From Pseudacidovorax intermedius (GTDB lineage: Bacteria > Pseudomonadota > Gammaproteobacteria > Burkholderiales > Burkholderiaceae_C): 64,000 nucleotides of DNA. Positions 1 to 64,000 of the stretch are shown in pieces. The stretch covers positions 1 through 64,000 of the forward strand of contig NZ_LDSL01000047.1 in the NCBI RefSeq assembly GCF_001476815.1, read 5' to 3'. A model generated the notes under the pieces. It was not told the origin of the DNA, did no database searches, and saw only the letters and a program-made list of their open reading frames with translations. A program made the translations under genes and the position numbers. The first letter of the stretch is position 1, and each line of letters begins with the position of its first letter.

Positions 1-780
1 GGGTGGCTCGGGTGGCTCGGCCGGATCGATCTCAGTAACTAGCGCTTTAATTTTTTCTCGTTTCGCCTTTGGGAGTAGCTCAAATATAAAATCCTGCGTT
101 TGTTTGTGCAGCGCTGAAAATGTATTGCGTTCCGAATATATACAAAGCAGCAGGCAATTCTGCATTACTTGCCGCATGTCGCGAACTAGCGATTCGCTCT
201 GAAGTCGGAGCAGCTTGATTTCTTCAAGAGATTTTCTTAAAACTAGGCTGCGAGAATCTGTACTATGCACCGATGTCGAAAGCAGCGCGTACAGCCGGGG
301 TAGCTCCTTAAACTCCACGTCAAGCGGGGAGGCAAAGCACGGTAGAAATCCACAGTGCTCACGCAACTCCCTCATTTCCAGATAGTATTTATTTCTCGAA
401 TGCAACCATCCATACTCAATAACATGGTCGCGGAAATAATGATGTCGCCAAAAATTCTCAATTATGCTTCGAAGGTAAAACCTTCCCGCCCGAGCGTCTC
501 CGTTGAGCAAGACATGAACAAGATGTACGGCGTCCGACGCAAGTTCTTGAAAAAAAACACTCTGATGAGGAGCCAAGGCACGATCAACTGCCATGGCCCG
601 AGCAAGAAAGGAAAATGCCACTGAAAACCTGTGCGCTGTGGCGATGGTTGATTTTTGCTTGCCCTCATCCTCCAGCCTAGACTTCTCTGCGCCATTCCAA
701 TACTTCTTAAAGTCGTCCTTAACCGTCTTCGACGGATTGGCGACCACAGGGCGCACGGTAGACACAGCGTCGGGAATCAT
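1..780 (-). CDS. Unknown protein, third gene of the ParA module (3' end cut by window edge)
   Basis: Open without a stop from an ATG at 780 to base 1, giving at least 260 residues; the stop is outside the window. The start overlaps the stop of the gene before it (TGATG), so translation is probably coupled. I do not recognise the family. The protein looks soluble and mostly helical. It has a charged patch at residues 101-120 (FYLRSIIENF then WRHHYFRDHV) containing R112-x6-H119, loosely like the R-x(4-6)-H motif of HEPN RNases. The visible C-terminus ends in a Pro/Glu-rich stretch (PAEPPEPP). HEPN membership is only a guess. Codon use is AT-richer than the host genes. Confidence 0.7.
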   Translation of the reverse strand, partial: MIPDAVSTVRPVVANPSKTVKDDFKKYWNGAEKSRLEDEGKQKSTIATAHRFSVAFSFLARAMAVDRALAPHQSVFFQELASDAVHLVHVLLNGDARAGRFYLRSIIENFWRHHYFRDHVIEYGWLHSRNKYYLEMRELREHCGFLPCFASPLDVEFKELPRLYALLSTSVHSTDSRSLVLRKSLEEIKLLRLQSESLVRDMRQVMQNCLLLCIYSERNTFSALHKQTQDFIFELLPKAKREKIKALVTEIDPAEPPEPP

Positions 781-1373
781 CACATGCCTTTTATGAGCTC
801 GGACCAACGATAGATGAAGCTCTCACTATCTTTTGAAGAGTCCCTGACAACTTTGCTCAGTCGTTGAATGAAAGCTTTCTTTTGCTCATAATTCATATCT
901 TCGAATTCTTTATGAACCCTTGAAACGTACCGGCTTCGAGCTTCCTTTGGACGTCCTGGGATTCCTGTAGCAGCTATAGCGTCTGATAATGACGGAAATA
1001 CTTTTTCGTCGGCTAGCAACGTCTTCAGACTAGACTCATCCATATAGAACGAGTTCTTTTTTGTATATGAACCTTTATCAGAATGCCGAACTACTTTCCA
1101 GCCATCGTCATCACGATAGACAGCAGACCGCTTTCTAGCTTGCTCATCAGAACCGACGTCCATGAGGTTGGTTTGATGAGTGCCTAGTTCACTCTGCTCT
1201 ACCTCATCGTGAAGCGCGGCAAGATTTTTAACGACCGATTTAACTGTTAAGCTATTTGTCAGGCTCTTGTCATTCAAAAACGACATTAGCTCTTCATGGG
1301 AGTATTGGGCAGCAAGCTCGTAAATTTTTGCTGTTAGTGCAAGCCCTGCGCGGCGGGTCAATAGTTTACTCAT
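780..1373 (-). CDS. Unknown 197-aa protein, second gene of the ParA module
   Basis: Lies between the ParA-like gene and the third gene, overlapping both (ATGA with parA, TGATG downstream), so the three form one coupled unit. I do not recognise the family. It is rich in Lys, Arg, Ser and Glu, has no signal peptide or membrane segment, and looks mainly helical, with a Lys/Arg-rich C-terminal half (residues about 140-197). Its position directly after a ParA ATPase suggests a ParB-like adaptor, cargo or ATPase-activating partner, but no ParB motif is visible. The base composition is unlike the host genes. Confidence 0.75.
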   Translation of the reverse strand: MSKLLTRRAGLALTAKIYELAAQYSHEELMSFLNDKSLTNSLTVKSVVKNLAALHDEVEQSELGTHQTNLMDVGSDEQARKRSAVYRDDDGWKVVRHSDKGSYTKKNSFYMDESSLKTLLADEKVFPSLSDAIAATGIPGRPKEARSRYVSRVHKEFEDMNYEQKKAFIQRLSKVVRDSSKDSESFIYRWSELIKGM

Positions 1374-2194
1374 AGCAAAGCGGCAACTCTATTTTCAAAT
1401 TCTCGACAAATACCATTTAAAGCGGTCTTTACTTCGTTGAACTTACCGCCCTTGGTAGACAGCTGAAGCGGCAAATTCTTGTCCGCGGCCTCCGCAACGC
1501 CTGTGGTCTGACCAATCGTATCTTCAAAGACTTGACCTGCATACTGTCGGCGCACTAACTTCATCGTATCGGTCATCGCCTCGGTCTGTCGAACCTGACA
1601 AAACACCAAGCCTAGCAGGTAAAGCGCCTGACCCGCTCGATCTTCGTAATCCTGCATTGCGCGCTCCAGAAGAGGCAGCCCTAGAACTGAGAGAGGGTCT
1701 GGCTTTATTGGAACAAGGTAAGCATCAGAGGATAGGAATGCACTGTAGCTAAATAGTGATGCCGTAGGGGGGCAGTCGATCAAAATATATTCGTAGCTGC
1801 TCCGTACTTTGTCTAAAAACACCCGTAGGCGATTCTCCGTGCCGCGAGGTGCGGCATCAAGTTTCATCAAGTCGAGCGTAGACGGGAGAACATCAAGTCT
1901 GTGTCCACCCCGTATTACGGGAATGATGGCACTGGCCGGAGTTGGTTTGGCGGGAGCAATGTCCTCTATCCCGTTTGGCATAAATATATTTAGAACTGTG
2001 TGACGATTTTTCAGCCAGCCCAAATATGTTGCCGTATCAACAATCCACTGAGTTGCGTTGAATTGCGGATCTATGTCGACCAAGAGAACTCTTCTCCCCT
2101 TCATGGCAAGTTCCCAGGCCAAACCCACTGCAAGAGTTGTTTTCCCGACCCCGCCCTTCATGTTGATAAGCGAGACGACGATTGCATTGGGCAT
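1370..2194 (-). CDS. ParA/MinD-family ATPase
   Basis: 274 residues, the usual length for a short ParA. It has a deviant Walker A with the signature lysine (KGGVGKTT, residues 13-20), a Walker A' at 39-46 (VDIDPQFN) and Walker B at 137-143 (ILIDCPP). There is no N-terminal helix-turn-helix, so it resembles type Ib or orphan ParAs. Such ATPases dimerise on ATP, bind DNA non-specifically and position plasmids, islands or protein cargo. The start is backed by AAAAGGAG five bases before the ATG. It is the first gene of a coupled trio; no ParB is visible. Whether it segregates DNA or powers a defence or transfer function cannot be told from this sequence. Confidence 0.9.
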   Translation of the reverse strand: MPNAIVVSLINMKGGVGKTTLAVGLAWELAMKGRRVLLVDIDPQFNATQWIVDTATYLGWLKNRHTVLNIFMPNGIEDIAPAKPTPASAIIPVIRGGHRLDVLPSTLDLMKLDAAPRGTENRLRVFLDKVRSSYEYILIDCPPTASLFSYSAFLSSDAYLVPIKPDPLSVLGLPLLERAMQDYEDRAGQALYLLGLVFCQVRQTEAMTDTMKLVRRQYAGQVFEDTIGQTTGVAEAADKNLPLQLSTKGGKFNEVKTALNGICREFENRVAALL

Positions 2195-2273: not shown

Positions 2274-2343
2274 GCCAACTGCCCGCCTTGGCAACCTTGA
2301 GGCACTAGGGCGCTCAGAGCGGTTTATATTCAGCCTCGCCCGT

Positions 2344-2415
2344 GCAGCCGAGGGAGACCATCCCGATGCTCGGTGCGCGGACGCGGTCGTCGGTCGTGCT
2401 GAGGGGGTTCGTCAT
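2344..2415 (-). pseudogene. rimO: rimO 5' fragment (24 codons), cut at the island junction
   Basis: An ATG at 2415 on the minus strand opens a frame of 24 codons ending in IGMVSLGC, the characteristic N-terminus of RimO, the radical-SAM methylthiotransferase of ribosomal protein S12; the Cys is the first 4Fe-4S ligand of the MTTase domain. After the TGC codon the expected PKA-type continuation is lost. The frame reads eight or nine unrelated residues and stops near 2314. The break coincides with the change to AT-rich DNA. Either rimO is disrupted or the element carries a replacement 5' end at its other side; the rest of rimO should lie beyond the left edge. Confidence 0.65.
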
Positions 2416-3227: not shown

Positions 3228-4559
3228 TCAGCCCGGAAAGCGCACCCGCACCCGCAACCCGCCCAGCGTGGCCGAGCGGTCGAGCTGCAGTTCGGCGCCA
3301 TGCAGTTCGGCCACCGAGCGAACGATCGCCAGGCCCAGGCCGCTGCCGGGCGCACTGGCGTCCGCGGCGCGGAAGAAGCGGTCCCACACGCGCAGGCGGT
3401 CGGCCTCTTCCAGCCCAGGGCCGGAATCCTCCACCACCAGCAGCACGCCGCCGCCCTCCTGCGCCTGCTGCACGGTGACGTCCACGCGGCCGTTCTGGGG
3501 CGTGTACTTGACGGCGTTGTCGACCAAATTGCGCAGCAGGATGCGCAGTGCGTCGATGTGGCCCTCGACGCTCACGGCGTCGGCGCGCGCGAGCCCCAGG
3601 TCGATGTGCTTGGTTTCGGCCGCGGCGACGGCGTCGGCCACCGCCTCGCGGGCCAGCATCGCCAGATCGACCGGCGCCGCGGTGCCGCCCGCCGCGGCAT
3701 GGGCCTCGTTGCGGGCCAGCGTCAGCAGTTGCTCCACCAGCCGCGTGGCGCGGTCGATGCCGGCGGCCAGCCGCTGCACGGCCTGCTCGTGGGCGGCCGG
3801 GTCGCCGGCGCGCCGCAGCAGTTGCACCTGCAGCTTGAGGGCCGCGAGCGGGGAGCGCAGCTCGTGCGCCGCATCGGCCACGAAATGCTTCTGCGCATCG
3901 AAGGCGCGGCGCACGCGGTCGAACAGCAGGTTGAGTTCGGCGACCAGGGGCCGCACCTCCTCGGGCAGGCCCTCCTCGCCCACGGGCGACAGGTCGTCCG
4001 GCTGGCGCGATGCCACCTGGCTGCGCACGCGCGCCACCGGCGCCAGCGAGCCGCTGACCACCCACCACACCACCAGCATGAGCAGCGGCGCCATCAGCGC
4101 GATGGGCGCCACGGTGCGCAGCGCCAGGCCGCCGGCCATCTGGCGGCGCGCCGCCATGTCCTGCGCCACCTGGATGACCAGGCCGCGCGCCTGCATGGAC
4201 AGCACGCGGTAGGTGGTGCCGCGCGCATTGACCTCGGCGAAACCCAGCACGGCCAGCTGGGGCAGCAGCGCCTCGTCGGCGGATTCGAAGATGCGCTGGC
4301 CGTCCTGCGTCCACACCTGCACCACGAACTCGAAGTTCTGGTCCGAGGGCCCCAGGCCGCTGACGGCGGCGCTGGGCGGCAGGCCGGCGCGCAGCGACAG
4401 GGCCATCTGCTGCATGTGGTAGTCGAAGATGGCGTCGGCCTCGCGCAGGACGGTGCGGTAGGTGACCAGCGCCTGGATGCCGCCGGCCAGCACGATGGCC
4501 GCCAGCAGGAAGACGAGCAGGCGCGCGCGCAGCGAATGCATGACGCCCGGCCAGCGCAT
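3228..4559 (-). CDS. Two-component sensor histidine kinase (QseC/TctE type)
   Basis: 443 residues. There is an N-terminal membrane helix (about 9-30), a periplasmic domain of roughly 110 residues, a second membrane helix (about 148-168), HAMP, then a HisKA H-box (HFVADAAHELRSPL, phospho-acceptor near His232) and a HATPase domain with N (NLVDNAVKYT), G1 (EDSGPGL) and G2 (GSGLGLAIV) boxes. Its ATG is two bases after the response-regulator stop, so the pair is coupled. It should autophosphorylate and phosphorylate the adjacent regulator. The stimulus is unknown; related kinases sense metals, small carboxylates or envelope conditions. It is the last gene of the patatin-CHRD-regulator-kinase unit. 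Confidence 0.92.
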   Translation of the reverse strand: MRWPGVMHSLRARLLVFLLAAIVLAGGIQALVTYRTVLREADAIFDYHMQQMALSLRAGLPPSAAVSGLGPSDQNFEFVVQVWTQDGQRIFESADEALLPQLAVLGFAEVNARGTTYRVLSMQARGLVIQVAQDMAARRQMAGGLALRTVAPIALMAPLLMLVVWWVVSGSLAPVARVRSQVASRQPDDLSPVGEEGLPEEVRPLVAELNLLFDRVRRAFDAQKHFVADAAHELRSPLAALKLQVQLLRRAGDPAAHEQAVQRLAAGIDRATRLVEQLLTLARNEAHAAAGGTAAPVDLAMLAREAVADAVAAAETKHIDLGLARADAVSVEGHIDALRILLRNLVDNAVKYTPQNGRVDVTVQQAQEGGGVLLVVEDSGPGLEEADRLRVWDRFFRAADASAPGSGLGLAIVRSVAELHGAELQLDRSATLGGLRVRVRFPG

Positions 4560-63656: not shown

Positions 63657-64000
63657 TACAGGAAGGAGGCCTGCAGCCCCTCCGGCCGTTCGGACGCCGC
63701 ACGCCCCGGCGCCACCGGGAAGGCCGCACCGGGCTCGCCGCACTGCGCGCGCTGGCGCAGGGCGTGTTCCATCACCACCAGGGCCAGCATGGCCTCGGCG
63801 ATGGGCGTGGCGCGGATGCCGACGCAGGGGTCGTGGCGGCCCTTGGTGACCACCTCCACCGGCCGGCCGTCCACGTCCACCGAACTGCGCGGCGTGGTGA
63901 TCGAGCTGGTGGGCTTGATGGCGATGGCCACTTCCAGGTCCTGCCCGGTGCTGATGCCGCCGAGCACGCCGCCGGCGTTGTTGCTGGCGAAGCCGTCGGG
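63656..64000 (-). CDS. aroC: Chorismate synthase, C-terminal part (5' end beyond window)
   Basis: 114 C-terminal residues; the start is outside the window. Signature segments: [46 protein letters not shown] and [18 protein letters not shown]. Converts EPSP to chorismate with reduced FMN. The stop TAG overlaps the GTG of the following MFS gene. Confidence 0.95.

Follow-up and report, generated by a model that had tools for sequence, protein, structure and literature searches.

The window analysed here, a stretch of 64,000 nt whose base 1 is the first base of contig C238 of genome G000, carries near its left end a short piece of rimO. Read on the minus strand from 2415 to 2344, it translates to MTNPLSTTDDRVRAPSIGMVSLGC, which corresponds to rimO codons 1 to 24 and breaks off at the Cys codon of the SLGC motif. 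Over these 72 nt the fragment is identical at 64 positions to rimO of a genome of the same genus (G011), through the Cys codon inclusive, and the translation together with this match bears out the first-pass annotation of a rimO gene cut after its 24th codon, at SLGC. The interval proposed for the fragment, 2314-2415, holds for 2344-2415; the remaining 30 nt are element sequence, which continues the frame as TGEAEYKPL, unrelated to RimO, up to a stop at 2314. The minus-strand stretch 2318..2343 resembles the left arm, GTTTATAT..CTATC, of phage attP sites and is the phage arm of a putative attL.

To the right of the fragment lie two host genes: one for a putative glycolipid-binding protein (PF06475; 2659..3219, plus strand), which adjoins rimO in G011, and one for a sensor histidine kinase (3228..4559, minus strand), which is also close to rimO in G008, G011, and G012. 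To the left, all on the minus strand, are genes for a ParA-like ATPase (1370..2194), an unknown protein of 197 aa that overlaps the parA stop (780..1373), and an unknown protein whose frame is open at the contig end (1..807). These three had no tblastn match at 1e-8 in the compared loci, including three complete elements, and for that reason look accessory to this particular element. A change in base composition had been placed at the junction, and a break is indeed present: from position 2001 to the end at 64000, the 1-kb bins have a GC of 0.646-0.760, as against 0.47-0.48 over positions 1-2000. The break does not mark the whole element, however, since the part on a second contig of the same genome (C243) has a GC of 0.61-0.74 except for one bin at 0.49; the low GC thus belongs to the accessory genes beside attL.

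With a RimO model, the sole match in G000 outside the window stub is C243:157918-159297 (517 bits, 462 aa). The rest of rimO, which the first-pass annotation had proposed to look for to the left, is intact there and opens with codons other than those in the window; its N-terminus, MNTPTMTDEQKRAPSVGFISLGCPKALTDSE, differs from that of the stub. A recombinase gene, likewise proposed as a check, is there too: divergent from this rimO, start-to-start with it, lies a gene for a 540-aa large serine recombinase (PF00239 and PF07508; PHROG integrase family), whose zinc ribbon scores 23.9 bits, just below the cut-off of 25.3. Beside it are genes for a portal protein, both terminase subunits, a head protease, a major head protein, a tape measure protein, and tail proteins; terminase, portal, head, and tail genes form one block, and the structural genes reach the end of C243. 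Next to the recombinase and inside the prophage (L022, 6062-9105) are ArsB, a low-molecular-weight phosphatase, and an FMN reductase, that is, arsenic resistance genes, and the contig also encodes an SRAP protein, a lysozyme, and a candidate defence ATPase (PDC-S59). By coordinates ~36.6 kb of the element is visible, ~34.2 kb of it on C243 and the remaining 2.3 kb on C238. No exact overlap was found between the end of C243 and the start of C238, and no repressor or replication module was recognised among the scanned genes of the two contigs.

An uncut counterpart, such as the first-pass annotation had suggested seeking in relatives, is present in G011, where the histidine kinase gene, the glycolipid-binding gene, rimO, and rnr stand in a single row and RimO begins with MTNPTSTTDDRVRAPSIGMVSLGCPKALTDSE. 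In G000 the histidine kinase and glycolipid-binding genes are beside the window stub on C238 and rnr is beside the rimO on C243. When the window stub is joined to the C243 remainder, 124 of 132 nt agree with the start of the G011 gene; in the 72 nt that precede PKAL, agreement with G011 is 64 positions for the stub and 45 for the start of the C243 gene. Each of the 15 genomes of the genus has a single rimO match. At the C243 gene, sequence comparison indicates that the replacement start is in frame and supplied by the element; of the two outcomes that had been envisaged for an element integrating in the 5′ end of rimO, breakage or a new start, it is the second that we find, and the gene is kept. 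As a separate observation, miaB was absent from G000 above the model cut-off, possibly through an assembly gap, while the 14 other genomes have one.

We conclude with high confidence that a temperate tailed phage has integrated in the 5′ end of rimO, supplying the gene with a new start, and that the window contains the attL of this prophage. The earlier suggestion of an island was right as to a mobile element, which turns out to be a tailed-phage prophage with a serine recombinase. The large serine recombinase encoded at the other prophage end would join the phage attP to the host attB, with crossover predicted at the TG of the Cys codon (2345..2346, minus strand) in the conserved SLGC motif; among the Fe-S cysteines of RimO this residue is the first. 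Codons 1 to 24 of the host gene would remain in the window as a dead stub, and the rest of rimO would come to lie behind phage DNA that provides both an in-frame N-terminus ending in ..PSVGFISLGC and the start codon for it, back to back with the start of the recombinase gene. RimO would then presumably stay functional in the lysogen, and excision should restore the original rimO start. The junction is accordingly best read as a working kind of insertion and not as a broken gene.

Similar arrangements occur in other genomes. A recombinase match at E ≤ 1e-60 was found in 13 of 399 genomes of the family (a draw from a larger group, G000 included in both counts), and it faces rimO in 10 of the 13 and a TPP-riboswitch-like sequence in three. 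Among the nine rimO-type relatives other than G000, four have a stub at the far end, at distances from the recombinase, by coordinates, of 38.1 kb (G324), 40.4 kb (G089), 42.1 kb (G088), and 46.7 kb (G036). In the remaining five, no stub was seen before the contig end, which is reached after 46 kb (G199), 27 kb (G231), 16 kb (G071), 2.4 kb (G200), and 0.2 kb (G067). By comparison with these relatives, C238 and C243 probably represent the two ends of one continuous prophage.

A wider scan of named genomes, with the best 80 of 93 relatives used, gave 61 loci with rimO divergent within 1.5 kb, four with a TPP-riboswitch motif, 14 with another target, and one with no upstream sequence; the sample leans toward rimO, because nine of the 11 recombinases in the alignment behind the scan patterns are rimO-type, and several of its loci are genomes already in the 399-genome search. 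Four loci (L071, L124, L131, and L148) were counted as rimO because, upstream of an extra gene, they have a RimO-type start. With this weighting, rimO is the commonest target in the sampled part of this serine-recombinase family, in beta- and gammaproteobacteria. Among viral-contig loci (best 80 of 211), 36 are rimO-type and three TPP-type (L218, L221, and L231); the other 41 include many that start at the recombinase, so that their target cannot be judged. In 12 viral contigs attP itself is visible, as a RimO start that gives way to different sequence once past SLGC. A RimO start is likewise encoded by attP in phages JC1, Rb1, and LPPA36; no such attP was found in Bcep176.

Two side observations concern the spacing and the other targets. 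A Pseudomonas group (L071, L124, L131, L148, L228, L237, and L249) has ~1.2-1.5 kb between attachment site and recombinase, room for an extra gene; in the P. aeruginosa phage LPPA36, which has a RimO-type attP at this site, an annotated gene occupies the space. Related recombinases in Rhodanobacter and Dyella (L118, L129, L130, and L140) and in Pseudomonas (L136 and L142) stand beside other recurrent sequences that are neither rimO nor a riboswitch.

An integrative conjugative element or genomic island, instead of a phage, might also carry a ParA-like gene and arsenic resistance genes, and large rimO islands with conjugation genes are described for Acidithiobacillus ferrooxidans (PMC10322971). 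We consider this reading very unlikely, given the head, packaging, and tail genes next to the recombinase on C243, the size of 38-47 kb in the four relatives whose element lies on one contig from end to end, and the same recombinase family and attP in viral contigs and phage records. The presence of a complete rimO elsewhere in the assembly could suggest that the stub is a partial second copy, a duplication or pseudogene left without any mobile element. This is extremely improbable: G011 has one rimO match, between neighbours that G000 splits over two contigs; the stub is closer to G011 (64/72 nt) than is the start of the complete G000 gene (45/72); and that complete gene begins at a recombinase junction found in many other genomes. 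An assembly chimera, which could be suspected because the draft has 295 contigs and the junction lies 2.3 kb from the start of one of them, is just as improbable, since like stubs, cut after SLGC, occur in G036, G088, G089, and G324 and the other junction in G000 is independent and lies 34 kb inside its contig.

Returning to the prophage, we place the crossover within the TGC codon, since attL and attR differ on either side of it. The set examined for dyad symmetry consisted of the attP of JC1 and, after removal of one duplicate, 11 of the 12 from viral contigs; it did not include Rb1 or LPPA36. The best centre falls on the TG of the Cys codon in 11 of the 12 sites and one base off in the twelfth, although the palindromes of single sites are weak, being matched in 5 to 319 of 500 shuffles. 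The rimO core beside the recombinase has an in-frame ATG at 63 of 67 loci and GTG or TTG at the other four, some genomes being counted twice.

The codons of the replacement start are strictly kept. At the Ile/Val position, 62 distinct junctions have ATA (44) or GTA (18), so that this codon ends in A in all 62, and the codon before it has T as its third base in 61. The 148 Ile codons in the rest of rimO, taken from seven of those loci, are ATC (135) or ATT (13), and never ATA. This difference suggests that the recombinase site fixes the Ile/Val codons, and support comes from the opposite arm of attP, which has a motif resembling this one (GTTTATAT..CTATC compared with GTATAGGTATGGTATC); as far as sequence can tell, recombinase binding may be what holds these junction bases. 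If so, the fixed synonymous bases offer a concrete case of DNA that must be recognised by a recombinase and must also encode a conserved protein strand. A rimO promoter within the start of the recombinase gene might raise synonymous third-base conservation there; across 55 rimO-adjacent recombinases no such rise was seen (0.57 in codons 1-30, 0.53-0.62 elsewhere).

To place the targets on the phylogeny of the recombinases, 91 eligible rows were reduced to 83 and then 82 by dropping L091 (no upstream sequence), proteins shorter than 380 aa, and identical proteins. The tree, a quick search without bootstrap and with several long branches, comprises 62 rimO, 14 other, and six TPP rows, and requires seven target changes compared with 19.0 in shuffles. 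The six TPP rows group together as a clade (SH-aLRT 100) within a larger one, also at SH-aLRT 100, whose 22 further rows are all rimO-type; branch order within the latter is not resolved, so the TPP group may be sister to the rest of it.

The TPP-like loci are L047 (G293), L048 (G354), L050 (G225), L109, L120, L121, L133, L218, L221, and L231; L238 was not counted among them, its TPP flag being an artefact of a negative start coordinate. The loci are read as riboswitches on two grounds, the motif CTGAGA[AG]AGTCCC and Rfam scores. For the eight loci other than L218 and L221, the TPP model gave 46.8, 36.8, 34.2, 29.8, 28.1, 28.0, 24.3, and 22.8 bits (E from 2.9e-6 to 0.97), all below the gathering score of 54.3; a scan of eight loci at that threshold called no TPP riboswitch. 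Such scores would be expected of broken or hybrid aptamers, and equally of mimics. The phage DNA beside the recombinase in TPP-type loci gives an aptamer-like 3′ part; G293 has a second, interrupted TPP-like copy (40.1 bits), and G225 has a sequence like the 3′ half of the riboswitch, which Rfam does not recognise, 2.8 kb from the first half. Behind the TPP-like sites, the genes seem to encode a transporter in G225 and a TonB-dependent receptor in G293. Were the TPP assignment true, the recombinase or genes controlled by thiamine could come under hybrid control upon lysogeny. If the target did shift from a protein motif to a riboswitch, recombinase retargeting would also become testable, which matters for genome engineering with serine integrases. 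Among open-licence PMC papers, searches for phage integration at TPP riboswitches listed nothing relevant.

Traces of former prophages are visible within the genus. Among its 15 genomes the recombinase is intact beside rimO in G000, and four (G004, G008, G012, and G013; scar loci L253, L251, L252, and L254) have, upstream of rimO, a broken remnant of the first ~300 nt of the recombinase gene; in the other 10 no remnant was detected at E ≤ 1e-3 within 1.5 kb. In all four the RimO start is phage-type, MN.PT.TDEPKRAPS. Since only ~1.5-2 kb separate the histidine kinase gene from rimO in G008 and G012, these two are now without the prophage, and the phage-written rimO start seems to have been kept after its loss. 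These scars suggest that replacement starts become the host's own. The Ile/Val codon in the four scars is ATC or GTG, which is host-like and fits a release from the recombinase constraint. No clear promoter block was found in the remnant upstream of rimO in the four genomes (conservation declines gradually, from 0.60-0.87 within 300 nt to 0.40-0.47 beyond).

Taken jointly, these patterns hint at a lineage that replaces half of whatever conserved element it cuts, protein or RNA, with a double-coded attP, one clade having shifted to TPP riboswitches and hosts keeping the phage-written start after decay. We put this forward tentatively, as a reading that is rather less probable than its negation; the same reserve applies to its part on double coding, by which, in most members, one attP arm would serve both as recombinase half-site and as codons for the RimO strand [IV]-G-x-[VI]-S-L-G-C.

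The first-pass annotation regarded rimO as no standard target, which the literature contradicts: the insertion habit is already known, and what is added here is the strictness of the replacement codons and further occurrences. Burkholderia phage JC1 (OM283127; PMC9144972) is a serine recombinase phage that enters the 5′ end of rimO and supplies an in-frame ATG. The G000 element shares with it the rimO 5′ crossover, the far-end stub, the in-frame start, and a related recombinase (56% identical), although this falls in another clade of the tree; JC1 is moreover a 61-kb Bcep22-like podovirus (PMC9144972), whereas the G000 prophage has a tape measure protein, ars genes, and ParA. Prophage J1_pp_2 of Variovorax boronicumulans J1, a 39.8-kb siphovirus-type element listed in table 2 of PMC9658991 as lying in RimO with a serine recombinase, shares target and recombinase type with ours, but is given with an att sequence other than the SLGC core.

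Replacement of the 5′ end of a conserved RNA-modification gene by element sequence is also described for dusA-associated islands (PMC4482086); these resemble the G000 prophage in that respect and differ in target gene, which here is rimO, and in having their own integrase family. The same paper names rimO of Polaromonas naphthalenivorans CJ2 in passing only. In A. ferrooxidans, rimO is the attB of iMGE1, and att-site PCR on six elements including iMGE1 showed excision for five, the passage leaving unstated which five (PMC10322971). Unlike the G000 prophage, the rimO elements described there are islands or ICEs of 53 and 165 kb with conjugation genes. In Acidithiobacillus ferrianus (L164), a partial match to the G000 recombinase faces rimO, and a recombinase of this type may explain the published Acidithiobacillus rimO islands.
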